A stretch of DNA of 64,000 bases, taken from NCBI GenBank assembly GCA_021790335.1, contig JAJYEE010000011.1, positions 1-64,000 of the forward strand, in the 5' to 3' direction. This DNA comes from Pseudomonadota bacterium (lineage in GTDB: Bacteria; Pseudomonadota; Gammaproteobacteria; Acidiferrobacterales; UBA6901). Under the pieces are notes generated by a model. The model was not told the DNA's origin. It saw nothing but the letters and a program-made list of their open reading frames with translations, and searched no databases. Positions within the stretch are counted from its first letter, which is position 1; every line of letters begins with the position of its first letter. A program made the translations under genes and the position numbers. Below are positions 3,322 to 17,096 of the stretch, one piece after another.

Positions 3322-3975
3322 TCAGGGCTTGAGCACCATGCCGTCCTTGAGATAGGCCGCCAGATCGGCAATGTTCTGATTGCTGAGCGGATTGACCAGC
3401 GTCGTCGACGATGTGCCACGCACGCCACCCAGCAGACTGGCGACCAGCTGTAGCGGCGGAAGGGTGCGCGCCATCGTGAACAGATCAGGTGCGGGGGCGG
3501 GTGACTTGGGATCGGGATAAGCGTGACAGGCCATGCACAGATTCCTGTACAGCGTGCGTCCGGTGTTCAACGCCAGTGGGGTCGCTGGCAGCGGCAGCAG
3601 GCCGCGCGTATCCAGGGGATAATGTTGCGAGAGGTGATCGATATCAGTCGCGAGCGCAGCGAGATGTCCATGCGCGTACATAACCTGCAACTGTCGCAAC
3701 TGCGCCAGCAGCTGCCGGTCGTTCGCGTGCCGCTGCTCTTCGAAATAGCCGCGTGCCAGCAGCGGCAGCACGCCGATCGCACTGCCTATCTTGGCACGCA
3801 ACCGAACGCGCTGCGCGGGTGTGAGCCCGGCGCCGAGAAGCCGGTGGCTGCGGATGGCCAGGACCGCGAGTTCAACAGCGAAACGCTGGGTGCGCTCCCC
3901 CGCGGCGATGGCACTGGAACAGACGGCCGTGGCGACCAACAGGATCGCCACGGCCACACAGCGACAACGGTTCAA
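3322..3975 (-). CDS. Secreted c-type cytochrome
   Basis: Signal peptide (MNRCRCVAVAILLVATAVCSSAIA) and CMACH haem-binding motif; 8 bp after the rhodanese gene on the same strand. Confidence 0.75.
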   Translation of the reverse strand: MNRCRCVAVAILLVATAVCSSAIAAGERTQRFAVELAVLAIRSHRLLGAGLTPAQRVRLRAKIGSAIGVLPLLARGYFEEQRHANDRQLLAQLRQLQVMYAHGHLAALATDIDHLSQHYPLDTRGLLPLPATPLALNTGRTLYRNLCMACHAYPDPKSPAPAPDLFTMARTLPPLQLVASLLGGVRGTSSTTLVNPLSNQNIADLAAYLKDGMVLKP

Positions 3976-3983
3976 CAGCAGCG

Positions 3984-4907
3984 TCAGTCACTCACCTTCT
4001 TCACGACCGGCAGCGACTTGTTACGCGACCACTGAGACATGGAACCCGCGTACATCCGCGCCTGCTTGTTGCCGAGCAGCTCATAGCTCGTAAACCATCC
4101 GAGCGCTGCCCAGTGCCCCGTATTGCAGAACGTGATTTGCTTGCCTTTCGTCGGTACTTTGGCGACCTTGTACAGAGCCCGCAGCTTCTGCGGCGAACGG
4201 AACATACCGCCATCGTTGCGGGTAATCCAGTTCTCGGGCAGATTGCGGGCACCCGGAATGGTACCGCTTCGCACATCGACGATATTGCGGTTGATGCCCA
4301 AATACTGGGCCGACGGCCGGTTGTCCACCAGTGAAATGCCGCTCTTCATGGCACTTTGCACGTTCTGCTCACTGGCGAGCAGTTCCGGACGCAGGTGCGC
4401 CACGAAGGTCGTCGCGCGGGGTTTGTTGAACCCGGCCTGGATCGGATGCTTCGCGGCGACATAGGCGGTGTAACCACCGTTCAGAATAGACACGTTGTTG
4501 TCACCGAGGTACTTGAAGGTCCAGAACACACGCGCTGCACCGCCCATGTCGGTCGCATTGTTGCCATCCGTATAGATGACCACATGTGCGTCGTTTCCTA
4601 TCCCCAGTCCGCCGATCAGTTTCTCCAGTGCCGGCACCGGCGGCACCAGGCCAGGCGCACCGTCGACCTTGATGCGCCAGCCGCCACTCGCATAGTTGCT
4701 GTACACCGCACACGGAATATGGCCACGCAGATAGGCAGTCAGGTCTCCACCGCCACCAATCGGGTTTCTAATGTCGAGCAGCACGACTCCTGGCTTGCAC
4801 GCATGTGTCGCCACCCAGCTGGCATCCACCAACGGCGGAGCTGAAGACGAGGCGTAGGCAGCCCCACTGGCCAACAGCGCAATTCCAAACAATAACGGTT
4901 TTTTCAT
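3984..4907 (-). CDS. Periplasmic two-domain rhodanese-like sulfurtransferase
   Basis: Signal peptide MKKPLLFGIALLASGAAYA; VVLLDIRNP, SGTIPGARNLPENW and active-site loop ITFCNTGHWAALGW with Cys retained. Confidence 0.85.
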   Translation of the reverse strand: MKKPLLFGIALLASGAAYASSSAPPLVDASWVATHACKPGVVLLDIRNPIGGGGDLTAYLRGHIPCAVYSNYASGGWRIKVDGAPGLVPPVPALEKLIGGLGIGNDAHVVIYTDGNNATDMGGAARVFWTFKYLGDNNVSILNGGYTAYVAAKHPIQAGFNKPRATTFVAHLRPELLASEQNVQSAMKSGISLVDNRPSAQYLGINRNIVDVRSGTIPGARNLPENWITRNDGGMFRSPQKLRALYKVAKVPTKGKQITFCNTGHWAALGWFTSYELLGNKQARMYAGSMSQWSRNKSLPVVKKVSD

Positions 4908-4926
4908 CGCACGTCTCCTCACCTCG

Positions 4927-5112
4927 TTAAAGGGTAACTACAACATCGGATGCCAACAATTCATCCAGCACCTGATTCCACTCCCCATCGGACATCGCCG
5001 TTCCAGTCACATCACATCTATAAACGTTGTGAAATGCCTCGAGCTCGGACAGCGCGTCTTCCATCATTTTTCTGTCCGGAAACAAGCCCGTGTTCAGCAC
5101 CGCGATGTTCAT
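4927..5112 (-). CDS. Small DsrE/TusBCD-like protein (61 aa)
   Basis: MNIAVLNTGLFPDRKMMEDALSELEAFHNVYRCDVTGTAMSDGEWNQVLDELLASDVVVTL; tightly packed in the operon; C-terminus resembles the two neighbouring ORFs. Confidence 0.55.
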   Translation of the reverse strand: MNIAVLNTGLFPDRKMMEDALSELEAFHNVYRCDVTGTAMSDGEWNQVLDELLASDVVVTL

Positions 5113-5125
5113 GCCCTCTTCCCTC

Positions 5126-5401
5126 CTACAGGCTGATGACGGCATCGGCTTCGATCATGGCCATGGACAGGCCCGCAGCACTCAAATGCGGCAGCCCCTG
5201 CCCTTCCACCGTGCTCTCCGGCTGGATGTCTGAAAGCTCGAGAAGTTCTGCCTGGCGTGCGTTATCCGGAGTCTCGGCCACCGGACCGGTCATAAAAACC
5301 AGCCGCACCCGGTGCCCGAAGATGGTCAGCCCGGCCGCTACACGCATGGCCTCGGTGTGGTCCTCACGCCCCAGCAACAGAATGGATTTGTGCCCTTGCA
5401 T
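5126..5401 (-). CDS. DsrE-like small protein
   Basis: 91 aa, MQGHKSILLLGREDHTEAMRVAAGLTIFGHRVRLVFMTGPV...ADAVISL; DsrE-like beta-alpha start. Confidence 0.6.
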   Translation of the reverse strand: MQGHKSILLLGREDHTEAMRVAAGLTIFGHRVRLVFMTGPVAETPDNARQAELLELSDIQPESTVEGQGLPHLSAAGLSMAMIEADAVISL

Positions 5402-5410
5402 TTCCGTTCC

Positions 5411-5704
5411 CTATAGACTGATTATCTTCGCGGCCTCAGCCGCAAGTGCGCTGTTGCCGGTCTGGCTTCCGAGCTCCACCGGGCACTGCGCATGACCCAT
5501 GTGGCGCACCCAGGAGTATTCGCAGGCCACGGCTTTGGATGCACAGGCCAGCAGGTCCACCACGCCGCGGTCGGCCAAAGTGCGCACACCTGCACTGGTG
5601 AAAAAGCACGACCAGGTTGTGCCTCGTCGCCGGCATGCGCGCATCAGCGCCGCCAGCGTCTGACCCGAATCAGGTCTGGAAACGAGAAACATCAGATCGG
5701 TCAC
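5411..5704 (-). CDS. DsrE/TusD-like sulfur-relay protein
   Basis: 97 aa, MTDLMFLVSRPDSGQTLAALMRACRRRGTTWSCFFTSAGV...AAKIISL; start overlaps the upstream gene's stop by 4 bp. Confidence 0.6.
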   Translation of the reverse strand: MTDLMFLVSRPDSGQTLAALMRACRRRGTTWSCFFTSAGVRTLADRGVVDLLACASKAVACEYSWVRHMGHAQCPVELGSQTGNSALAAEAAKIISL

Positions 5705-6663
5705 GCGCGCCGCCTCCCTAGGTAATAGCCGGTAACAGCGGCAAGCACCAATCCCGCGAACACCGACATAATGGACTTGTCGGAATCGGGCCTGTCTGCG
5801 CCCGTGAATGCAGCAAGCGCTCGCGGCCGCTCGCGATAGGTTTCGGCATCTACCGGCAGCCCGGTATGGTATGCCCAGTCTTCCCAGCCGCCGGGATAGA
5901 CCCTGGCATCAAAGCCCGCACCGGCACGCAGCAGCGTGAAATAGGCGATCGAATCGTAGGCATTGTTCGCATACACCACAGCCGAAGCCACCAGCGGAAG
6001 TTCAACGTCGTGCTGCGCCACGTCGATTCGCAGCGCTGCCATTGGCAGCGGCTGCGCCCCGGGTAAGTGCCCGCCACGCAGCGCGCGGATGCGCCGCCCC
6101 CAGTAGGATGCCCGACTGCGCCCGTCGAGCAGATAGGGCGGATGCGGCGACTGCAGTGCCCGTGCCAGATCTTCGCGCAGCACGATCAGCCCGGCACGCG
6201 GCTGGCCCTGGTACACCGGGTTGCGGAACATCCCGCGCGGAGTACCCGGTGCCGAGGGAGTGTGCGCGAGCAAAGGTGTGAGTGGCGCCGTGAGCACTGC
6301 CACCCGGGACTGTCCGGCCAAATACAGCAAGCCCGCCACGAAATCGCGCCGCACCGCGTCGTCGCCCGCCACCAGAACGGTCTCCCGGCCAGAGAGGCCG
6401 GTCGCCCCCAGCACCCAGACGATGTCGCGGAAGCTTGCGAGCCGATCGTGCGGTCCCAGAAATTCCCGCGGCGGCAGGCAGCGAGCCCCGGGCAGCGAGC
6501 GCGCAATGCAGTCGGCACGTGGCCTGGTATCGACCACCACCGCATTGTGCACGCGCGGATCCCCGAATCGCGACAAATAGAAAAAATTGCGTGTGCCTGG
6601 CGTCGCTGCCGCGACGCCGCTGACCAGCAGCAGGGTCAGGGCAAACACGGCCGATCGCAGCAT
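5701..6663 (-). CDS. Rhodanese-fold protein with signal peptide and C-terminal TM anchor; probable loss of catalytic Cys
   Basis: VVVDTRPRADC, YLLDGRSRASYWG, GGHLPGAQPLP and YPGGWEDW rhodanese motifs; active-site loop reads VVYANNAYDS; C-terminal FAGLVLAAVTGYYLGRRRA. Confidence 0.75.
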   Translation of the reverse strand: MLRSAVFALTLLLVSGVAAATPGTRNFFYLSRFGDPRVHNAVVVDTRPRADCIARSLPGARCLPPREFLGPHDRLASFRDIVWVLGATGLSGRETVLVAGDDAVRRDFVAGLLYLAGQSRVAVLTAPLTPLLAHTPSAPGTPRGMFRNPVYQGQPRAGLIVLREDLARALQSPHPPYLLDGRSRASYWGRRIRALRGGHLPGAQPLPMAALRIDVAQHDVELPLVASAVVYANNAYDSIAYFTLLRAGAGFDARVYPGGWEDWAYHTGLPVDAETYRERPRALAAFTGADRPDSDKSIMSVFAGLVLAAVTGYYLGRRRA

Positions 6664-6669
6664 GGCGGG

Positions 6670-6945
6670 TCAGCAGCCCCCGATTCGGACCACTGCCGCC
6701 GACGCGGTACCGGCAGCCGCAGCCTTGGGCGGGTGTTGCAGGTAGTAGCCGACCAGGTCGGTCATCGATACCGTGCCATAGGTGCTGCCCAGGTTGATGT
6801 CAGAAAACGAACCCATGGGTTGCGCCGTCTGGGCGTGCGCTAGCGCCTGCGGCGATATCGCGGCATACCGGAACATCACGGTCAGCCCGATCAGCGTCAC
6901 CACCAAGGACATAACGCAGTACAGCAGGATCTGTCTTGTGTTCAT
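6670..6945 (-). CDS. Small membrane-anchored protein ending in GGC
   Basis: 91 aa MNTRQILLYCVMSLVVTLIGLTVMF...VVRIGGC*; N-terminal TM; operon context. Confidence 0.6.
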   Translation of the reverse strand: MNTRQILLYCVMSLVVTLIGLTVMFRYAAISPQALAHAQTAQPMGSFSDINLGSTYGTVSMTDLVGYYLQHPPKAAAAGTASAAVVRIGGC

Positions 6946-6956
6946 CGCGACCCCCG

Positions 6957-7049
6957 TCAGAAGACGTCCTTCGTCAGCGCGACATACAGGATATAGAACA
7001 TGACCACGAACATGATGATCTGTAGCCAGGTTTGTAGGTCCAGATGCAT
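6957..7049 (-). CDS. 30-aa single-TM peptide (not in supplied ORF track)
   Basis: Manual translation MHLDLQTWLQIIMFVVMFYILYVALTKDVF*; upstream minus-strand sequence CAGGAGGCAATC supplies a strong ribosome-binding site. Confidence 0.65.
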   Translation of the reverse strand: MHLDLQTWLQIIMFVVMFYILYVALTKDVF

Positions 7050-7075
7050 GATTGCCTCCTGAGGTGTGGATTCGG

Positions 7076-7318
7076 TCAGTCGACGCCGGCAACTGCGCCG
7101 GGGCCGGCGGACCCCTTATAGTCGCGCACCAGCGTGTTCACGTTGAGTGGCTTGCCATCGACCGGATTGATCACCGGCGGCGTGAAGTATGGCACACCGT
7201 CCCGCGTGGCACGCAGAACGGCTGGTGGTTTTGCGAATAGATATACAAATGAACCCACAGTGGTCGCAGCAGCGACCAGCGCGAGGATCATCATCTGTAT
7301 CTGAGCTCTGGGCATCAT
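7076..7318 (-). CDS. Small membrane-anchored protein of unknown function (80 aa)
   Basis: N-terminal TM (MMILALVAAATTVGSFVYLF) and soluble tail; packed between tusA-like and 30-aa genes. Confidence 0.6.
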   Translation of the reverse strand: MMPRAQIQMMILALVAAATTVGSFVYLFAKPPAVLRATRDGVPYFTPPVINPVDGKPLNVNTLVRDYKGSAGPGAVAGVD

Positions 7319-7324
7319 AGCCTC

Positions 7325-7630
7325 CTAGTTCTTGCGCACGAACACGCGCCAGTAGCGTTCCGCCTTGAGCGTGCCCAAATGCGAGCCGTTGAGTTCCGGC
7401 ATCATCGGCGGAATAGCCTCCATAGAAGTCGGATTGTCCACCATAACCTCGATGATCGCCCCCGGGGCCGCCTTGCTGAGTGCCTTCTTCGTCATGAGCT
7501 GCGGCCTCGGGCAGGAGTCGCCCAAGACATCAACCACCTGGCTCACGGTATAGCGCTGATCACCGAGGGTAATCGTGCCAGTTGCCTGCGCGCTCGGTTC
7601 CTCGCTTTTTTTGCTGCCGAATAGGCCCAT
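7325..7630 (-). CDS. TusA-family sulfurtransferase
   Basis: VVDVLGDSCPRPQLMTKKALSKAAPGAIIEVMVDNPTS: TusA CPxP motif and fold pattern. Confidence 0.85.
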   Translation of the reverse strand: MGLFGSKKSEEPSAQATGTITLGDQRYTVSQVVDVLGDSCPRPQLMTKKALSKAAPGAIIEVMVDNPTSMEAIPPMMPELNGSHLGTLKAERYWRVFVRKN

Positions 7631-7633
7631 GGA

Positions 7634-8350
7634 TCATGCCTCCTCTTGGTAAGAACCGCTCGCGCCCGCCGCACCGGCCATGACCGCGCCGATTGCCGGC
7701 TCCGGCATGGCAGCGTCCACTTGCGGCGAGGACTTCGCGGCTTCAGGTTGAACTTGCCCGCGCGCGGTCTGTAGCGCACGCTCCTTGCGCAGAATCAGGC
7801 GATACAGTCCGAACAGTGCGGCGAACTGGATCAGGCCGAATACGATCGCGGGAATCCCGGTCTTCTGTTGCAGCGTCAAGGCATCGGCAAAACCGAACTG
7901 CAGTGCTGCCAGATTCGGCTGACCGGTCATGGTCGCCGGGGCCGGAGGCCAGTACGTGAACGACCACAACAACGAAGATACGAACAGTCCGATGATCAGA
8001 AACAGCAGCGCCCACAGCGCCCCGATATTGCCTTCTCCGGTCTTCACCCAGGACGATACGGTGCAGGCACCAGCCAGCACCATGCCGATGCCGAACAGAA
8101 AAAGCCCGATGAATTGATTGATCCCGACGTCGAAGCGCATGGGATTGCCGTTGCCGACGCTGATGAAACCCGTGAACCCGAGCGTGAGGATCATCATGGC
8201 CACCAGCAGCGCCTTGGTATTGCGATAGTTCTTGAACAGCATGGCGTCGCGCAACGCCGACGTGTTGCACCAGCGCGAGCGCTGTACCAGCAGACCCACA
8301 GTGCTGCCGAATATGAACGCCGCGACGCATTGGCCCGTCACCGTAATCAT
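7634..8350 (-). CDS. YeeE/YedE-family transporter
   Basis: Polytopic; QRSRWCNTSALRDAML and VLAGACTVSSWVKTGEGN conserved Cys-containing motifs. Confidence 0.8.
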   Translation of the reverse strand: MITVTGQCVAAFIFGSTVGLLVQRSRWCNTSALRDAMLFKNYRNTKALLVAMMILTLGFTGFISVGNGNPMRFDVGINQFIGLFLFGIGMVLAGACTVSSWVKTGEGNIGALWALLFLIIGLFVSSLLWSFTYWPPAPATMTGQPNLAALQFGFADALTLQQKTGIPAIVFGLIQFAALFGLYRLILRKERALQTARGQVQPEAAKSSPQVDAAMPEPAIGAVMAGAAGASGSYQEEA

Positions 8351-8354
8351 ATGT

Positions 8355-8849
8355 TCATGCCTCCAGAACCTTCTTGTAGATAAAACTTCCGACCCAGGCG
8401 CCCGCCACGATGCCGCTCACAGCAAGATACCCGCCGAGATTCATCTCGGGAGTCAGCCCGAAGAACGTGCTTACGTTGCAGACGAAGGACAGGCGTATGC
8501 CTATCCCCATGAGCAGTCCGCCTATGGTGATCATCACCCATTCCGACAGATGGCGCGGAACACGCCAGTAGAATTCTTTGCTGAGCACCGCGGCCACAAA
8601 CGCGCCGAAGCCCATACCAAGGCTGATGTAGATCTTCCAGTAGGCCCAGGTCGGCGTGAATACCAGGGTCCAGAACGGGATGCGCGCCAGGGTCTTGGCG
8701 CCGAGCACGTATTTCGCGACCAGACCAGCGAGCATGGTTTCGCCCCCGCCCACGGTCCAGGCTCCGACGATCACGAACAAGAACACGTCGAGCAGCGCGA
8801 TGATGGCAAGCGCGATGATTGGGTCGAGGGTCTTCTTAAACAGATCCAT
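8355..8849 (-). CDS. YeeE/YedE-family transporter (second half/subunit)
   Basis: Polytopic; GGLLMGIGIRLSFVCNVSTFFG motif; 4 bp upstream of the partner gene. Confidence 0.8.
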   Translation of the reverse strand: MDLFKKTLDPIIALAIIALLDVFLFVIVGAWTVGGGETMLAGLVAKYVLGAKTLARIPFWTLVFTPTWAYWKIYISLGMGFGAFVAAVLSKEFYWRVPRHLSEWVMITIGGLLMGIGIRLSFVCNVSTFFGLTPEMNLGGYLAVSGIVAGAWVGSFIYKKVLEA

Positions 8850-8915: not shown

Positions 8916-8931
8916 AGCAATTTCGATGCCA
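8916..8931 (-). promoter_or_regulatory. Sigma-54 (-24/-12) promoter for the sulfur operon
   Basis: Minus strand TGGCAT-CGAAA-TTGCT matches TGGCAC-N5-TTGCW with GG/GC elements intact; about 67 nt upstream of the first operon start codon. Confidence 0.75.
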
Positions 8932-9051: not shown

Positions 9052-10386
9052 TCAACCCGATTCCTCGAGCTTGCGCCGCAGAGTGGATCGGCTGATGCCA
9101 AGCACTCGCGCTGCCACGACCTGGTTACCACCATGGGCCGCGAGCACCCGGTGGATGTGGCGCGACTCTACTTCCGTAAGGCTGAGGCGTGTCTCGTCCT
9201 CCTTGCCCGCAGCGCCTGCCGGGATCGGCCCGAAGGCGATCTCGTCGACGTCCAGTACGGGTTTGGCGTGAAGCGCGAAGCTGCGCTCGATGATGTTCTC
9301 GAGCTGACGCACGTTTCCCGGCCAGTCGTACTCGACCAGCTTGCGGCGCGCCGCCTCTGTCAGGGAAAGATCGTCGCGGCCGCGACTCTTGCGCAACTGC
9401 TTCAGAAAGTGCTCTACCAGCAGCGCGATGTCCTCGCGCCGTTCGCGCAGCGGCGGAAGAGCGATCGGCAGCACGTTGAGCCGGAACAGGAGGTCGTTGC
9501 GGAAGCTGCCCTCCGCCACCATGGCATCGAGGTCGCGGTTGGTCGCGACGATCACACGCACGTCCACCTTTACCTCCGTTTCGCCTCCTACCGGCCGCAC
9601 TTCACCCTCCTGCAGTACCCGCAAGAGCTTCGCCTGCAGCCGTGGACTGATGTCGCCGATCTCGTCCAGGAACAACGTGCCCCCGTGGGCCCGCTGGAAC
9701 AGACCGCGCATGTTCGCGGTGGCGCCGGTAAATGCTCCTTTGACGTGACCGAACAACTCGGAATCGAGCAGTTCCTCAGGCAGAGCGCAGCAGTTGACGG
9801 CGATGAACGGCCCGCGCGCGCGCCGGCTGGTTGAATGGATGGCGCGGGCAACGACCTCTTTCCCGGTGCCGGTCTCACCCGTAACCAGAACCGGGATGTC
9901 CTGATTGCGGATGCGTTCGACCAGATCGAGAATCCCGCACATCGCTGGACTGCCCGCGATGATTTTGGACAGCTGGTCGCGCCCCGAAAGCTTCTCGCGC
10001 AAGCGAGTCACCTCCTCGCGCAGCGATTTCTTTTCAAGCACCTTGTTGATGCGCAGCATCAGCTCGTCGGGATTGATCGGCTTCGTCAGGTAGTCATAGG
10101 CGCCCAGCCGCATCGCCTCGACCGCAGTTTCTATCGATGCAAAAGCGGTCATCACGATGCTTTCCGCAGGATTCGCGCTCGCGCCGAGCTGTGCGAGCAG
10201 CGACATGCCATTGGCATCACCCAGACGCAGGTCGAGAACGACCAGATCCACCTGGTTGCGCTCGAGCGCGGCCCCGGCAGCTTCCAGCCCGTCCGCTTCG
10301 AGCGCCACATGGCCCTCTGAGCGCAGCAACATGCTCAGCGTCTTGCGGATCGAGGGTTCATCGTCGACGATCAGAATTGTAGCCAT
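9052..10386 (-). CDS. Sigma-54-dependent response regulator (NtrC family)
   Basis: Receiver (ILIVDDEPS, VVLDLRL), AAA+ GETGTGKEVVARAIH and GAFTGA motifs, Fis-type HTH at C-terminus. Confidence 0.95.
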   Translation of the reverse strand: MATILIVDDEPSIRKTLSMLLRSEGHVALEADGLEAAGAALERNQVDLVVLDLRLGDANGMSLLAQLGASANPAESIVMTAFASIETAVEAMRLGAYDYLTKPINPDELMLRINKVLEKKSLREEVTRLREKLSGRDQLSKIIAGSPAMCGILDLVERIRNQDIPVLVTGETGTGKEVVARAIHSTSRRARGPFIAVNCCALPEELLDSELFGHVKGAFTGATANMRGLFQRAHGGTLFLDEIGDISPRLQAKLLRVLQEGEVRPVGGETEVKVDVRVIVATNRDLDAMVAEGSFRNDLLFRLNVLPIALPPLRERREDIALLVEHFLKQLRKSRGRDDLSLTEAARRKLVEYDWPGNVRQLENIIERSFALHAKPVLDVDEIAFGPIPAGAAGKEDETRLSLTEVESRHIHRVLAAHGGNQVVAARVLGISRSTLRRKLEESG

Positions 10387-10391
10387 CGGAA

Positions 10392-11834
10392 TCAGACCGC
10401 CTCCAGATCGAAACTGATCTCGGTACCCACGTTCACGTGGCTGACGATCGACAGCGAGGTGCCATGCTGCATCAGAATCCGCTGCGCGATCGAGAGTCCC
10501 AGGCCGGTACCATGTTTGCGGCCGGTCACGAACGGCCGCACGATCTTGTCGAGCAGGTGATCGGGAATGCCGCATCCGTTGTCGGCAATACTGATTCTGA
10601 CAATGCGCCCGGCACGCTCGACCCGCACGTGAAGGTTGCCACCCTCGGGCATGGCCTGAACCGCGTTGAGCATCAGGTTCCATACCACCTGACGCAAATG
10701 ATCGGGATCATGACGCGCACGGCACGGACATACATCGCACTCCACCTCGACCCGCACCGCTACCGCCTGCGGGTTCTGGCGAATCAAGCTTGCGACCTCC
10801 TCGATCAGCGCGCATACATCGTCTTCCAGCAGCCGCGACTCGCGTATCCGCGCGAAATCCAGGAAATCGTTCAGGATGCGCTGCAAGCGCAGCGACTCGG
10901 TATTAAGAATCGCGATCGCCTGGGCACGATCGCTTACCGGAAGGTTCGACCGGTCGAGCAGCTTCACTGAGTTGATCACCGCCGACAGCGGATTGCGTAT
11001 CTCGTGGGCGATGCTGGCCGATAGCTCGCCCACACAGGCCAGCCGCTCGGCGTCGGTACGTTTCTCGTGTTCGCTGCGTACCTGATCGGAGATTCGCTGC
11101 AGCGACTCGGCCATGGCGTTGAATGCCCCACCCAGCAGACCCACCTCGTCGCGCGCTTGCAGGTCTACCCGCACGCCCAGATTGCCGCCGCCGATCTTGC
11201 GCACCGCCGCCATCAGCGTGTACAGATTGCGCGTAATGAGGACCGACAGTACCCATGCGGCGACGCTGCCCACCACCAGGGCCAACAGAATGAACAGCAG
11301 ACCCTCATTGCGCGTGGCGGCCAACTCGGATTTCAGATGCCGTGTGGACATTTCCAGAAACACCGTGCCAACACGCTGACCTGCCACCCGGATCTGTTCG
11401 TGCAGGCGCAGTCTGTTGCGTCTAGGCACCGCAACTCCATCCGGCGGCGCCGGCAATCGATGGCCAACCTGATGTGGGTCGGTGCTCGCCAGCACGTCGC
11501 CGCGCACGTCCACGATCGCCCCCTCGGTAACGTCGGGCTGTTGCTTCACGCGCTCGGTAACCTCGGCCAGCGAACCCAGGTCTTCGGCCAGCAGGGCGTT
11601 GGTGCTGGCCACCGCCATGAGCGTAATGAGCGAGTGCGCACGGTTATGGAGCTCCGCGCGGATCGCCTCGGACTGCTTGTTCACTGCCGACCAGACGAAC
11701 GCCCCCATCAGCACGGCATGCACAAGTGCGACTGACAGTACCAGCCGGAACCGCAGCGTCCGGAAGAAAGACAGTCGCGGCGACCGCTGCTCCGCGGCGA
11801 CAGTCTGTCCTCGATCGAGTTCGATGACACTCAT
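10392..11834 (-). CDS. Membrane sensor histidine kinase
   Basis: TM-periplasmic-TM, HAMP, SIAHEIRNPLSAV H-box, NLMLNAVQAMPEG N-box, GTGLGLSIAQRI. Confidence 0.95.
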   Translation of the reverse strand: MSVIELDRGQTVAAEQRSPRLSFFRTLRFRLVLSVALVHAVLMGAFVWSAVNKQSEAIRAELHNRAHSLITLMAVASTNALLAEDLGSLAEVTERVKQQPDVTEGAIVDVRGDVLASTDPHQVGHRLPAPPDGVAVPRRNRLRLHEQIRVAGQRVGTVFLEMSTRHLKSELAATRNEGLLFILLALVVGSVAAWVLSVLITRNLYTLMAAVRKIGGGNLGVRVDLQARDEVGLLGGAFNAMAESLQRISDQVRSEHEKRTDAERLACVGELSASIAHEIRNPLSAVINSVKLLDRSNLPVSDRAQAIAILNTESLRLQRILNDFLDFARIRESRLLEDDVCALIEEVASLIRQNPQAVAVRVEVECDVCPCRARHDPDHLRQVVWNLMLNAVQAMPEGGNLHVRVERAGRIVRISIADNGCGIPDHLLDKIVRPFVTGRKHGTGLGLSIAQRILMQHGTSLSIVSHVNVGTEISFDLEAV

Positions 11835-12670
11835 GGTTTCACACCGTCGTACTCGCTGTTGTGTGCGACCACGAAACCCCGGCTGAATCCGAGATGCCTG
11901 AGCACCATGCGTCCGCCGGCCGTCGCAGTGAGGTGCGTCAGCATCTTCCTGATGCGGTCAGTTTCATGTGCCGGCATGTCGTCGAGAACCGCAATCGGCA
12001 TCTGCGGCTGAGGCGGCGTCTGGGCAATCACCCGCAGTTCCCGCTGAACGCGCGGCGGCATGGAGCGCAGCGACGGCAACCAGGTGCCCGCCATGCCTAC
12101 CATCCCGTAATACACCGCCATCAGCGCCGAGTCCTGAGACCCAAAATACTTCACCTTCAGGTCCCGGTTAACGTGAATGCCGAGCGTCTCCATGTACTGC
12201 CGGGTCATGATCGTGGCGGCGTAGGCATTGGGATCCGGGAAGCCGACACGCAGACCCGGAGGCAGGACATGCGGTCCGAGCGCGTGGATCGGACTGTTGC
12301 GGCGCACGACCAGAATGCCGGCAAAGGGCTCGCCCGCAACCTTAACGATGACATGGTAGCCCCAGCGGCGGGCGCGGGTGTACAGCAGCGGATTCAGGTA
12401 GATGATGTCATACTCGCGGCGTTGGACACGACGCATGAAGGCCGCGAAATTGGGTGCGGTCACGAACTGCACCGGCCGGTGCAGCGCATGCTGCAGGGCG
12501 TCGGTCAGCGGCAGAAACATTCCGGCCAGCATGGTCGGGCTCTGCAGAGGAAGCACGCCGAAGCGCAGGTAGTGCGGTCGACGCGCGACGGCTGCACCGC
12601 TTACGGCGATCAGCACGATCGCCGTAAGCCAGCACAGCACCGATTGCAGCCGCCTGATCAACTGAAACAT
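11831..12670 (-). CDS. PhnD-like periplasmic substrate-binding protein, probable sensory accessory of the kinase
   Basis: Signal peptide; LRFGVLPLQSPTMLAGMFLPLTDALQ, NFAAFMRRVQRREYDIIYLNPLLY; 4-bp overlap with the kinase gene. Confidence 0.8.
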   Translation of the reverse strand: MFQLIRRLQSVLCWLTAIVLIAVSGAAVARRPHYLRFGVLPLQSPTMLAGMFLPLTDALQHALHRPVQFVTAPNFAAFMRRVQRREYDIIYLNPLLYTRARRWGYHVIVKVAGEPFAGILVVRRNSPIHALGPHVLPPGLRVGFPDPNAYAATIMTRQYMETLGIHVNRDLKVKYFGSQDSALMAVYYGMVGMAGTWLPSLRSMPPRVQRELRVIAQTPPQPQMPIAVLDDMPAHETDRIRKMLTHLTATAGGRMVLRHLGFSRGFVVAHNSEYDGVKP

Positions 12671-12877
12671 GTCTTGCACCCATGACGGGTCGATCCGCAT
12701 CGGACAACCCGCTGAACCTGACCCGCAACGCATATCGCCGTCCGAGCTTCTCCATAACCGGGCCCGTCCCTGCTGCCGGTCCCCGTTCACCGGGCGGGTG
12801 TGCGCCCCTGACCCATCGCCGACAGTGTAGCCCAGGCGCGTGACCGCCGCGAGACTGACAGGCCGCCGCGCGGCAGC

Positions 12878-14617
12878 TCAACGGACCGCGGATTTCCGGC
12901 CCCATTCCAGACGGCGGTGGAGTGCCAGGTGCAGTGGCGTCCAGGAATGCGGAATGCGGTGTACGAAGTGGTAGCGGGCGACATGGTAGCTCGGGTCGAA
13001 TCCGTAGAAATTCATCCGCAGCCGCTCGAGTTCCTCATCCCTGTAGGACTGCAGCGGCCGCTCAGCTTCTTCCCGAATGCGGCACCGGTTCTTCTCATCC
13101 AGCGCGCGGCGGAACGCATCGTCGCCCGCCAGATCGCGCGCCAGCATCCGCACGCGTAGCTCAAACTCCTCCACGGTGGTCCCGAAATGATCGTCGATGA
13201 GTCCGAGGCGCTTGGCCGCGTGCACCCCGATCGGCAGGCGGTTTTCCGTGATCGTCTCGGCCCGCTCCCCGCCGACGCGCCTCGGCAGCAGGTAAGTCCA
13301 GTATTCGGAACCAAAAAGATTGCCCATGCCCTTGTAGTGCGGATTCAGGATGACGCCGGTGCGTGCGCAGACACGGTCCGCCGCCAGTGCCAGGAATACA
13401 CCCCCGGCCCCGGCATTGCCGCGCACGGCCGCCACCGTTAGGTGCGTCTGGGTCGTGATGATTGCATGCGCCAGATCGTTCATCGCGTTGATGTTGCGCC
13501 AGGACTCGTCAGCCGGGCTTTCTGCCGATTCGATGATATTGAGATGGATACCGTTCGACCAGAAATCCCTGCCGCCCAGAAGCACGATGACGCGTGTCGG
13601 GCGTGCGCAGGCATGGCGGTAGGCGTGCAACAGGCGCCGACACTGCTCTGTGCTCATCGCCCCGTTGTAGAAATCAAAATACAGGTAGCCGACACGCCCC
13701 TCCTCCGCATACCGAATCTCCCGGTATGTCGTCACATCTTCCGGCCCATCGAGGGACAGCGGCGACTCGGGCACGCTGCCCGCCTGAGGGCCAAGAGCGG
13801 TGACGGCGGGAAGCTTGAAGGTCTTCTCGTGCGTATCGATCCTGCGCAGATGCCCGATCCACACCGCGCCGTCGATTGTGGCGCGGCAGATCGCGCCATC
13901 GCGCCGGGCGATTATTTCACCGGGGCGGCCACTCAAATCCGCCTCGCCACAAGCATCGAACAGCAGGTACGGCTGGCCGAGGATTTCATCCTCGACCCCC
14001 GGGGCTCCGTCGGCCGATCTGATTTTCCGCAGGATTGCGGCGCTGTCGTCATTCAGCCAATCTATCCGGCGCTGCGCCTGGGACATGAGCGGCCGTGCAC
14101 GGCCGTGCACGGCCGGATCCCGGTCGTCCAGCACCTGCGGCACGAATGACCTGGAAGTGAAACGCTCTACGGCGGAAAGAAGCGCGGCCGCCGCCGCCTC
14201 GGTCACTTCGTTGCGATAAAGACTGCTCTTGCGCGCCACGCGCATCGGAAAGTCTGCCGATGCCCAGATGTCGCCACCATCAAGCTGGGCGTTCGCCTGC
14301 AGGACCGTGACACCCCACTTCGCTTCGCCATCGATTATCGCCCAATCAAGCGCGGAAGGGCCGCGGTCACCCCGGATTCCCGGATGCACCACCAGACACA
14401 CATGCTGCCGCCAGACCTCCTCCGGTATGGCACGCCGCAGATAAGGCGCGACGACCAGATCCGGCCGGTAGAGCCTCACGGCCTCAGCGGTAACCGCGTC
14501 GTTGATGTCGAATTCGACTGAGACCTCGTGGCCGCGTTCCGACAGTTCGACGTACAACCGCTGGGTCAGGCTGTTGAAGCTGTGGCTCAGGAACAGGATC
14601 CGGAGCGGTCTACTCAT
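12878..14617 (-). CDS. hypX: Hydrogenase maturation protein HypX/HoxX
   Basis: N-terminal formyltransferase-like region (RPLRILFLSHSFNSLTQRLYVELSERGHEVSVEFDIND; VHPGIRGDRGPSALDWAI) fused to enoyl-CoA-hydratase-like region. Confidence 0.9.
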   Translation of the reverse strand: MSRPLRILFLSHSFNSLTQRLYVELSERGHEVSVEFDINDAVTAEAVRLYRPDLVVAPYLRRAIPEEVWRQHVCLVVHPGIRGDRGPSALDWAIIDGEAKWGVTVLQANAQLDGGDIWASADFPMRVARKSSLYRNEVTEAAAAALLSAVERFTSRSFVPQVLDDRDPAVHGRARPLMSQAQRRIDWLNDDSAAILRKIRSADGAPGVEDEILGQPYLLFDACGEADLSGRPGEIIARRDGAICRATIDGAVWIGHLRRIDTHEKTFKLPAVTALGPQAGSVPESPLSLDGPEDVTTYREIRYAEEGRVGYLYFDFYNGAMSTEQCRRLLHAYRHACARPTRVIVLLGGRDFWSNGIHLNIIESAESPADESWRNINAMNDLAHAIITTQTHLTVAAVRGNAGAGGVFLALAADRVCARTGVILNPHYKGMGNLFGSEYWTYLLPRRVGGERAETITENRLPIGVHAAKRLGLIDDHFGTTVEEFELRVRMLARDLAGDDAFRRALDEKNRCRIREEAERPLQSYRDEELERLRMNFYGFDPSYHVARYHFVHRIPHSWTPLHLALHRRLEWGRKSAVR

Positions 14618-15761
14618 TACTGCCCGCCTGCAGCGTGGGTGCATCGTTACGCCGCCGGAACTTGTAGTAGGCCGCGCAGGCGCCTTCCGAGGAAACCATG
14701 CACGATCCGATCGGATTGCGCGGCGTGCAGACGGTACCGAAGATCCTGCAGTCAAGCGGCTTCTTGACCCCGCGCAGTATCGCGCCGCATTCGCAGGCTT
14801 TGTTCTCGGCGACCGGACGCGGCTGCACCGCAAAACGCGCCTCGGCATCGTACCGGGCATACTGCTTCTTGATGCGCAGTCCGCTGTACGGAACCACTCC
14901 CAGTCCACGCCACTCGAACGTGCGACGCAACTCGAACACATCGGCCACCAGCGCCTGGGCCTTGGTATTGCCAGTACGGGTCACCCCGCGGCTGAACTGG
15001 TTTTCGACCTCGGCGCGGTGCTCATTCAGCTGACGCACCAACATGAGTATCCCCTGCAGCACATCCAGTGGCTCGAACCCGGATATGACCACCGGACGCT
15101 GGTATTCGCGCGCAAAGTATTCGTAGGCACGACTGCCTATGATCGTGCTCACGTGCGAGGGGCCGATGAATCCGTCCACGCGCACACTGCCGATCTGGCG
15201 CACATCGGGCGAATTCAGGATGCTCTGGATCGCCGACGGCGTCAGCACGTGATTACAGAACACGCTGAAATTCGACAAACCCAGGCGATGCGCCTCCCTG
15301 ATCGCCACCGCCGTGGGCGGCGTGGTTGTCTCAAAGCCGATTGCGAAAAACACTACTTCCTTCCCCGGATTATCGACCGCGAGCCGGATGGCCTCGGCGC
15401 ACGAATAGACCATGCGAACGTCGCGCCCCTCGGCCCTGGCCTTGAGCAGACTGCGCTTGCGCGAGCCTGGCACCCGCAGCATATCGCCATAGCTGCACAG
15501 CATGACGTTCGGGATCCCAGCCAGTTCGATCGCGCTGTCCAGGCGACCTATGGGCAGCACGCACACCGGGCAGCCAGGACCATGAACCAGCCGGATGTTG
15601 GCCGGCAGCAGATCCTGGATGCCGTAGCGGAAAATCGCATGCGTGTGCCCACCACAGAACTCCATCAAGTGGTAGTCGCGTGCCGGATCAGCTTCGCGCG
15701 CGATGGCAGCGGCGATGGCCGAAGCAACACGCCCGTCGCGAAACTCGCTAATGTATTTCAC
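14610..15761 (-). CDS. hypD: Hydrogenase formation protein HypD
   Basis: MEFCGGHTHAIFRYGI, VHGPGCPVCVLP, FFAIGFETTTPPTA, CECGAILRG. Confidence 0.95.
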   Translation of the reverse strand: MKYISEFRDGRVASAIAAAIAREADPARDYHLMEFCGGHTHAIFRYGIQDLLPANIRLVHGPGCPVCVLPIGRLDSAIELAGIPNVMLCSYGDMLRVPGSRKRSLLKARAEGRDVRMVYSCAEAIRLAVDNPGKEVVFFAIGFETTTPPTAVAIREAHRLGLSNFSVFCNHVLTPSAIQSILNSPDVRQIGSVRVDGFIGPSHVSTIIGSRAYEYFAREYQRPVVISGFEPLDVLQGILMLVRQLNEHRAEVENQFSRGVTRTGNTKAQALVADVFELRRTFEWRGLGVVPYSGLRIKKQYARYDAEARFAVQPRPVAENKACECGAILRGVKKPLDCRIFGTVCTPRNPIGSCMVSSEGACAAYYKFRRRNDAPTLQAGSNE

Positions 15762-15995: not shown

Positions 15996-17096
15996 CTACA
16001 GTTCCTCCGTAGGGGCCGGTTCGACAATCACCTCGTGCTCCACGCAGGGATCCAGTGCGACGACCAGCATGGCCACGCGGCGCCGAAGTTCCTGCACACC
16101 CGTGACCGGCAGGGCCAAGAGCGCGTGCACCAGCGCGCCTTCGGGATGAAAATTCCACTCTGTCGGCGCCACGATCCGGTAACGCTCAACGATACCGCCG
16201 CGCAGATTCACACGATGCACCAGGCAACCGCGCGCAGTCTCGACGATGCCGGTGCCGGATTGCGTGGCCGATGCCCCGCCGCCGCTGCCGCGCAGCGTAC
16301 GCCGTCCGGTGCCACCGTGCATCACCTGCAGATAGCGCCCCATTCTGCGCGGCAAAGAAGCGAGCTCCGTCAGGCGCGCCACAAACCGCGTCATCAAACC
16401 ATTTCCCTGCAGCCGCTGCATCTCGGCTACCAGGCTGCGTCGGCTCTGGCGCGCAAGAGGACCCGTCTCACAGGCCCGCCCGTCCCATACCGGACGGGCG
16501 GTGAACCTGTCGGCCGTATCCGCATCCAGGACCGCGGAAAACGTGCCCGAAGTGATGCGCGGCAAAACTCCGACACTGCTGCGACCGAGTTCTGCCAGCC
16601 GACAGTCCTCAACCGCTCCCAAAGTGCGTGCAGCGACGGTTGGCGCGCGGCGATACCATTGCCGCAATGCCGCCCTGTCGCGAATCTGCAGCCAATCGTC
16701 CGCGGACATGGCAAAGACGCCGTGCGCAAGCGCCGCGTCGATCTCGGACAATTGTTCGCTGGCAACGCTCAGGTCCATATCTGGCGGCACTCCGCCAGCC
16801 GTAGCCTGCCATATTCCTCCACCGAGCGCGCACCGCAGAGCGACCACGCTCCGGTGCAGAACAGCGAGATCCTCGAGCCCGGGCGGGGCATCGATGAACA
16901 GCCTCGGCCAGTCGAGCAGCAGCCGGCCGGCATGCTCCCGAACGGCTTCGGCGGCGACCAGAAGGCTGCGCCGCGCACGCTCAGCCCCCGTTGCCGCAAT
17001 ACCCTGGGCTTCCTCGCACGCCGCCATGCCGGCGCTCGCCTGGGCGACACCGCAAATGCTGAACAGCAGGGGCAACGCCTGCAGCGCCTCGTTCAC
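15996..17096 (-). CDS. HupK/HoxV-like hydrogenase large-subunit-related protein (start codon uncertain; frame is open to about 17253)
   Basis: LPLLFSICGVAQASAGMAACEEAQG, NiFe large-subunit-like; directly upstream of hypC. Confidence 0.7.
   Translation of the reverse strand: MNEALQALPLLFSICGVAQASAGMAACEEAQGIAATGAERARRSLLVAAEAVREHAGRLLLDWPRLFIDAPPGLEDLAVLHRSVVALRCALGGGIWQATAGGVPPDMDLSVASEQLSEIDAALAHGVFAMSADDWLQIRDRAALRQWYRRAPTVAARTLGAVEDCRLAELGRSSVGVLPRITSGTFSAVLDADTADRFTARPVWDGRACETGPLARQSRRSLVAEMQRLQGNGLMTRFVARLTELASLPRRMGRYLQVMHGGTGRRTLRGSGGGASATQSGTGIVETARGCLVHRVNLRGGIVERYRIVAPTEWNFHPEGALVHALLALPVTGVQELRRRVAMLVVALDPCVEHEVIVEPAPTEEL

Follow-up and report, generated by a model that had tools for sequence, protein, structure and literature searches.

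How sulfane sulfur passes from the periplasm to the cytoplasmic Dsr enzymes is a poorly understood step in a major lithotrophic pathway. As of 2024, the YeeE-family protein SoxT1A was the only experimentally demonstrated importer, and it is not present in all sHdr-type sulfur oxidisers (PMC11582611). The question is raised again by a twelve-gene cassette at positions 3322–8849, minus strand, of a 64,000-nucleotide stretch (the window) of contig JAJYEE010000011.1 from a gammaproteobacterium of the order Acidiferrobacterales (genome 3.08 Mb, 97.6% complete). The cassette recurs in three proteobacterial classes, and it is reasonably likely that it forms an inner-membrane sulfane-sulfur import relay joining a Sox system devoid of SoxCD to reverse Dsr. 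Since it is bounded, conserved and has invariant cysteines at each expected station, the import step becomes directly testable.

The initial annotation had described a putative twelve-gene sulfur-trafficking operon with tiny gaps and overlaps, and twelve open reading frames (ORFs) are indeed present from 8849 to 3322 with intergenic gaps of -4 to 26 bases. In transcription order they encode the C-terminal half of YeeE, the N-terminal half of YeeE, TusA, three small transmembrane (TM) proteins (tm80, tm30 and tm91), an anchored rhodanese-like protein, a trio of small proteins, an exported rhodanese and an exported cytochrome c. Several of the genes are preceded by a Shine-Dalgarno sequence, for example AGGAGG 5' of the ORF of 30 amino acids (aa). 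Annotation of each product with hidden Markov models, as had been proposed, identified the two YeeE halves (PF04143 on both), TusA (PF01206), both rhodaneses (PF00581) and the cytochrome (PF13442), and gave no direct Pfam family match for tm80, tm30, tm91 and the trio of the window.

About 60 genomes of alpha-, beta- and gammaproteobacteria have the block, the 30-aa TM peptide included, mostly amid unrelated neighbours. The gene order is maintained, and all small TM genes are present, in 16 relatives that belong to the same genus or to another family of the order; a single contig among these is truncated, and in a few the third trio gene is not detectable. One same-order relative (L056) is a metagenome-assembled genome (MAG) labelled Acidiferrobacter sp. 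A scan with the YeeE C-half, restricted to one genome per species, returned 63 loci in the three classes, and gene order is identical in nearly all of those long enough to show it. The core yeeE-yeeE-tusA-tm80-tm30-tm91-rhodanese-dsrE holds across classes, and the position of the exported rhodanese varies: it is downstream in most loci, upstream in L066, L069, L074 and L106, and divergent, together with the cytochrome, in the Thioglobus loci and in L100/L101. Carriers include the named strains Magnetovibrio blakemorei MV-1, Rhodobium orientis DSM 11290, Marimonas arenosa KCTC 52189 and Maritimibacter sp. HL-12, as well as Thiobacillus and Thioglobus MAGs. The tree of the YeeE pair mixes the classes, with six changes for alpha and three for beta, which is consistent with some transfer. 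One MAG labelled Rhizobium sp. (L095) has a cassette almost identical to the Thiobacillus copies, and its label is probably wrong.

The three small membrane proteins, invisible to annotation, gain a probable role from this context. The 91-aa tm91 (6670–6945) has a single TM helix at residues 6–24 and ends in Gly-Gly-Cys-COOH. Terminal Gly-Cys-COOH is found in 59/59 distinct sequences, mostly as GGC and otherwise as EGC, QGC or HGC, and C10 in 53 of the 59, which suggests that the C-terminus is a tethered persulfide-carrier arm. In an acidophile relative (G023, L038:10383–10770), a second partial tm91 copy lies right behind the first and also ends in GGC. The 80-aa tm80 (7076–7318), with an N-terminal TM helix at 10–28 and a conserved soluble tail, is conserved across classes. 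Its profile is weakly similar to that of tm91 (probability 69%), and the tm80-like and tm91-like proteins of bacterium BMS3Bbin13 (L104; 11575–11865 and 11991–12284), the deepest relative with the longest branch of the tree, share the C-terminal sequence SAKAISAPTGC. Because of this common tail and the profile match, tm80 and tm91 are suggested to be paralogues; Pfam and NCBIfam searches gave nothing usable for either. The 30-aa peptide tm30 (6957–7049; TM 7–25) was recovered at its conserved position in essentially every locus with a complete tusA-tm91 interval, in some only by small-ORF inspection. Compared with L047, its gene has seven synonymous changes and one nonsynonymous change (pN/pS 0.04), thus the ORF is under strong purifying selection. 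The string of genes is not a product of chance, as the full order is found again in distant genomes and even this ORF is constrained. The initial annotation had staked its reading on conservation of the small genes and of gene order; both are kept across the three classes, and a synteny search for yeeE-yeeE-tusA with the three small TM ORFs found the order again in each of them.

Two YeeE/YedE halves had been recognized at the head of the operon, and both belong to PF04143, with the refinement that the first gene corresponds to the C-terminal half and the second to the N-terminal half. The first product (8355–8849; 164 aa, PmpA-like) covers positions 172–310 of the model at 72.7 bits, and the second (7634–8350; 238 aa, PmpB-like) covers positions 1–189 at 84.4 bits. 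The C-half is 80–100% identical in the 16 relatives, with C124 invariant there; in the N-half, C28 and C96 occur in 61/61 and C8 in 55/61 distinct sequences. The TusA-like sulfur carrier (7325–7630; 101 aa, PF01206 60.6 bits) has a CPRP motif with C40, kept in 60/60 distinct sequences. Elsewhere in the genome there are further YeeE-family genes at C47:17756–18715 and C20:1772–2484, one full-length and one apparently split.

The trio had been read as three DsrE/TusBCD-like proteins, which stands for the first of them. DsrE-1 (5411–5704; 97 aa) gives an AlphaFold2 (AF2) model with a mean predicted local distance difference test (pLDDT) score of 97.9, whose best Foldseek matches are DsrE/TusBCD family structures at probability 1.00 (2qs7, 2d1p_C, 3pnx, 2pd2). 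Its C61 is found in 53/53 sequences, and 10 of 40 homologues match PF02635, weakly. No NCBIfam model matches it, and TIGR03012, for canonical TusD/DsrE, matches only another locus of the genome, on contig C107. The second protein (5126–5401; 91 aa, no Cys) and the third (4927–5112; 61 aa) are cytoplasmic and conserved in order, the former DsrF/TusC-like by position and size and the latter DsrH/TusB-like by position. Neither has a Pfam, NCBIfam or PDB sequence match, and profile comparison among the trio proteins showed no convincing relationship, so that the DsrF and DsrH labels reflect position and we infer the family assignment of both from it.

The two rhodaneses differ from the initial description in separate ways. 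The tail-anchored protein (5701–6663; 320 aa, PF00581 43.3 bits) has the fold and the C-terminal TM helix expected of it: its AF2 model (pLDDT 88.8) matches the tandem rhodaneses 1uar and 1e0c in Foldseek. There is no catalytic Cys in its active-site loop, and its only cysteines, C52 and C62 of the N-terminal domain, form a CX9C pair invariant in 51/51 sequences; judged by these residues, it is a pseudo-rhodanese that cannot act as a classical sulfurtransferase. Since a signal-peptide-like N-terminal helix precedes the C-terminal TM helix, its body is probably periplasmic. The anchored rhodanese of L104 retains the second-domain loop Cys (YCQTG), which suggests descent from an active ancestor. 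The second protein, annotated as a periplasmic rhodanese, is a tandem rhodanese with a catalytic Cys (3984–4907; PF00581 72 bits), and only its start required correction. In the 312-aa numbering from GTG 4922 this is C266, which aligns with the catalytic Cys of CRKG in bovine rhodanese (1boh, E 1.5e-28) and is kept in 44/44. The start is most likely ATG 4907, giving 307 aa, because 40/44 homologues keep Met6 of the ORF as read from GTG. The exported cytochrome c (3322–3975; PF13442 30.4 bits) has a single CXXCH, found in 49/49 sequences, with no conserved Met, His or Cys after it in the alignment (A8). In the alignment with the fructose dehydrogenase cytochrome, the MPxF loop bearing the distal Met is a gap. 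With this loop and any conserved ligand missing, the distal position of the heme may be vacant or unusual.

Carrier genomes are characterized by their sulfur oxidation genes. Among 46 carriers, SoxB scores past the cut-off in 37, DsrA in 37, canonical DsrE in 39 and SoxC in 8, although the low SoxC count may partly come from incompleteness of the MAGs. Nearly all members of the window's order have Sox and Dsr, so co-occurrence there is uninformative and a phylum-wide sample was used, comprising 249 Pseudomonadota genomes that are >= 90% complete. In this background DsrA was found in 36 genomes, SoxB in 40 and both in 11; the cassette was found in two, both with Sox and Dsr. Sox and Dsr occur together in 30/46 carriers compared to 9/247 background genomes without the cassette, and in 22/34 carriers when the acidophile cluster is left out; the Fisher p values, about 1e-21 and about 1e-17 respectively, ignore relatedness of the genomes. 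The DsrA of carriers is accompanied by type I dsrE, often contiguous, and by SoxB, which points to DsrA of the oxidative type. In the window's genome, dsrA lies on the cassette contig about 5 kb past the window end (C71:69091–70275), and SoxB is on a different contig. A second dsrA is present on contig C100, and relatives of the same genus likewise have two copies.

A relay is proposed because the sulfur-transfer cysteines are invariant, the gene order is conserved across three classes and the carriers have Sox and Dsr. The source would be thiosulfate, or sulfane sulfur on SoxYZ from a Sox system without SoxCD. Truncated Sox of this kind leaves sulfane sulfur on SoxYZ, and in a Magnetovibrio relative the sulfur is thought to reach the cytoplasm as persulfide (PMC10305379). 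Sulfur from either source would be taken up by the catalytic Cys of the exported rhodanese and passed to the Gly-Gly-Cys arm at the C-terminus of membrane-tethered tm91. The arm would then load the cysteine relay of the split YeeE (C28, C96, C124), perhaps assembled with tm80 and tm30, from which sulfur would move to C40 of TusA and to C61 of the DsrE-like trio. From the trio it would go on to canonical DsrEFH/DsrC and DsrAB. In the periplasm, thiol/disulfide turnover and an electron exit are probably the tasks of the CX9C pseudo-rhodanese and of the cytochrome c that lacks the distal Met. Two steps have precedents: SoxT1A imports sulfane sulfur for oxidation (PMC11582611), and in the case of DsrEFH type II encoded beside yeeE-tusA, TusA to DsrC sulfur transfer was obtained in vitro (PMC13293266). 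A more specific idea, to which we give somewhat less than an even chance, is that tm91, with tm80 as a probable paralogue and tm30 as a small subunit, represents a new class of sulfur carriers tethered to the membrane, whose Gly-Gly-Cys arm loads the split YeeE channel, giving a trans-envelope persulfide relay to part of the bacteria with SoxCD-less Sox and reverse Dsr. The first suggestion, a module that combines uptake, persulfide relay and electron exit and has additional small membrane proteins, gains support from its hosts, which are Sox and reverse-Dsr sulfur oxidisers, with the function itself still a proposal.

Regulatory elements are located outside the twelve-gene interval, at 8931–8917 for a sigma54-type promoter and at 9052–12790 for a regulator-kinase-binding protein triple, all on the minus strand. 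The promoter, TGGCATCGAAATTGC, is separated from the first gene downstream by about 80 bases and is the sole exact TGGCAYN5TTGC match in the window; with 0.64 expected by chance, it could, judged in the window alone, be a chance match. Such a site precedes the first gene in 14/14 loci with an adjacent triple and in 1/39 without, where the 39 were counted by hand and the f4 family of loci was left out of the promoter counts. The f4 family has the sigma54 site throughout, and only some of its members have the regulator within reach of the locus. A 22-base near-perfect palindrome upstream of the promoter, TTTGCTACAGATCTGTCGCAAA (9046–9025), was considered as an activator site and dropped, being unconserved even in the nearest relative. 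The triple consists of a sigma54-dependent response regulator with receiver, AAA+ and Fis helix-turn-helix domains (9052–10683; PF00072, PF00158, PF02954), a membrane sensor histidine kinase with HAMP, HisKA and HATPase domains (10392–11834), and a PhnD/ArrX-type periplasmic binding protein (11831–12790; PF12974 154 bits), whose nearest solved relative is ArrX (6x8w, E 1.2e-7) and which is the probable ligand sensor. Further upstream, a HypX-like protein with formyltransferase and enoyl-CoA hydratase domains (12878–14941) adjoins the triple in the nearest relatives too; together with a short protein similar to the NiFe-hydrogenase large subunit (15996–17096), it is part of a hydrogenase region.

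Several observations weigh against the import relay. In the window's order the cassette is found in 18/57 genomes, as compared to SoxB in 47 and DsrA in 43, and it is not the sole solution, since many Sox and Dsr genomes do without it. In five loci from other classes, the flanking genes that were identified include no sox or dsr gene; being unrelated to sulfur oxidation, they also make the cassette sharply bounded. The weakest assumption of the scheme is that tm91 has an N-in/C-out topology; in the reversed orientation the Cys arm would act on the cytoplasmic side. Finally, the YeeE pair could move thiosulfate itself. In that case the split YeeE would import intact thiosulfate like TsuA, TusA and the DsrE trio would break it down inside, and the periplasmic proteins would handle by-products. 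YeeE/TsuA and the TusA-like partner YeeD do import and decompose thiosulfate (PMC11073785), every transport cysteine is retained in the YeeE pair, and tusA is the next gene after it. We nevertheless regard this explanation as unlikely: the halves score 49.5 and 62.7 bits with the TsuA equivalog models of NCBIfam, far under the cut-off of 400, the periplasmic SoxB of carriers would compete for thiosulfate, and the invariant C-terminal Cys arm and the active periplasmic rhodanese are left unexplained.

The remaining explanations are less likely still. A signalling module, in which a small sulfur flux reports external sulfur and controls sox/dsr genes, has a precedent in SoxT1B (PMC11582611), and the three-component sensor adjoins the operon in 14 non-f4 loci; it is very improbable, given that no cytoplasmic regulator such as SoxR is encoded within the cassette, that the triple does not adjoin most alphaproteobacterial copies, and that a set of twelve genes, with those for a cytochrome and two rhodaneses among them, is large for a sensor. 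A role with another chalcogen or a metalloid (selenium, tellurium, thioarsenate), or in the detoxification of persulfides, would agree with the binding protein having ArrX as nearest solved relative and with a weak resemblance to selenium-linked YedE/YedF models and ExtH. All these models score under their family cut-offs, most cassette copies have no ArrX-like sensor and the carriers are strongly associated with Sox and Dsr, so that we attach hardly any weight to it. The same low credence applies to the reading that several separate units, unrelated in their roles, share a conserved neighbourhood: the variable position of the active rhodanese and the divergent cytochrome of L100/L101 would be in line with it, and the conserved core across classes and the tiny gaps in the window are contrary to it.

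The cassette can be compared with described systems. The initial annotation had not recognized a described system here. This is not true of the yeeE-tusA-dsrE part, which resembles the YTD cluster, that is, the yeeE-tusA-dsrEFH type II arrangement of cable bacteria, Desulfobulbales and disproportionators (PMC13293266, PMC13047784). Both have YeeE, TusA and three adjoining small proteins, at least one of them with a DsrE fold and an active Cys (C61 here). In contrast to the single full-length YeeE of YTD, the cassette has two half-genes; its carriers have SoxB and type I dsrE, usually beside dsrAB; and seven genes are additional (tm80, tm30, tm91, the pseudo-rhodanese, the active rhodanese, the cytochrome c and the second YeeE half). 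YTD clusters co-occur mainly with reductive DsrAB; the type I dsrE and SoxB of the carriers would fit an oxidative DsrA. C- and N-terminal YeeE halves encoded by two genes are also known from PmpA/PmpB, proposed to form a heterodimer (PMC11582611), but those are about 130 aa each, shorter than the 164 and 238 aa here. Escherichia coli TsuA(YeeE)-TsuB(YeeD) likewise has YeeE adjoining a TusA-like partner; however, TsuA is a single-chain protein for assimilation, and the cassette halves fall short of the equivalog cut-offs.

SoxT1A of Hyphomicrobium denitrificans belongs to the YeeE family, has conserved cysteines and, close by, a small TM protein of 56 aa without Cys, and imports sulfane sulfur for cytoplasmic oxidation after truncated Sox (PMC11582611), the role proposed for the cassette. 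Unlike the cassette, it is a full-length YeeE encoded with sox-sHdr genes, and neither a Gly-Cys arm protein nor a rhodanese pair or a cytochrome has been reported alongside; the downstream pathway here would be reverse Dsr. The arm of tm91 could in principle carry sulfur as the SoxY carrier does. SoxY ends in GGCGG, whereas tm91 is membrane-tethered, has its Cys as the very last residue and has no SoxY domain (no Pfam match). The regulatory triple and its promoter resemble AioX-AioS-AioR, which combines a PhnD/ArrX-like binding protein, a histidine kinase and a sigma54-dependent regulator with a sigma54 promoter before the target genes; that system responds to arsenite (PMC7565993), and the target here is instead a sulfur cassette. 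For the envelope half of the extended cassette no description was found in the searchable literature, which mostly does not extend to subscription papers. The cytoplasmic core resembles the known YTD kind, and what is new would be the arm with its Gly-Gly-Cys end, the small TM subunits, the pseudo-rhodanese with its CX9C pair and the cytochrome without a distal Met, with the roles suggested above.

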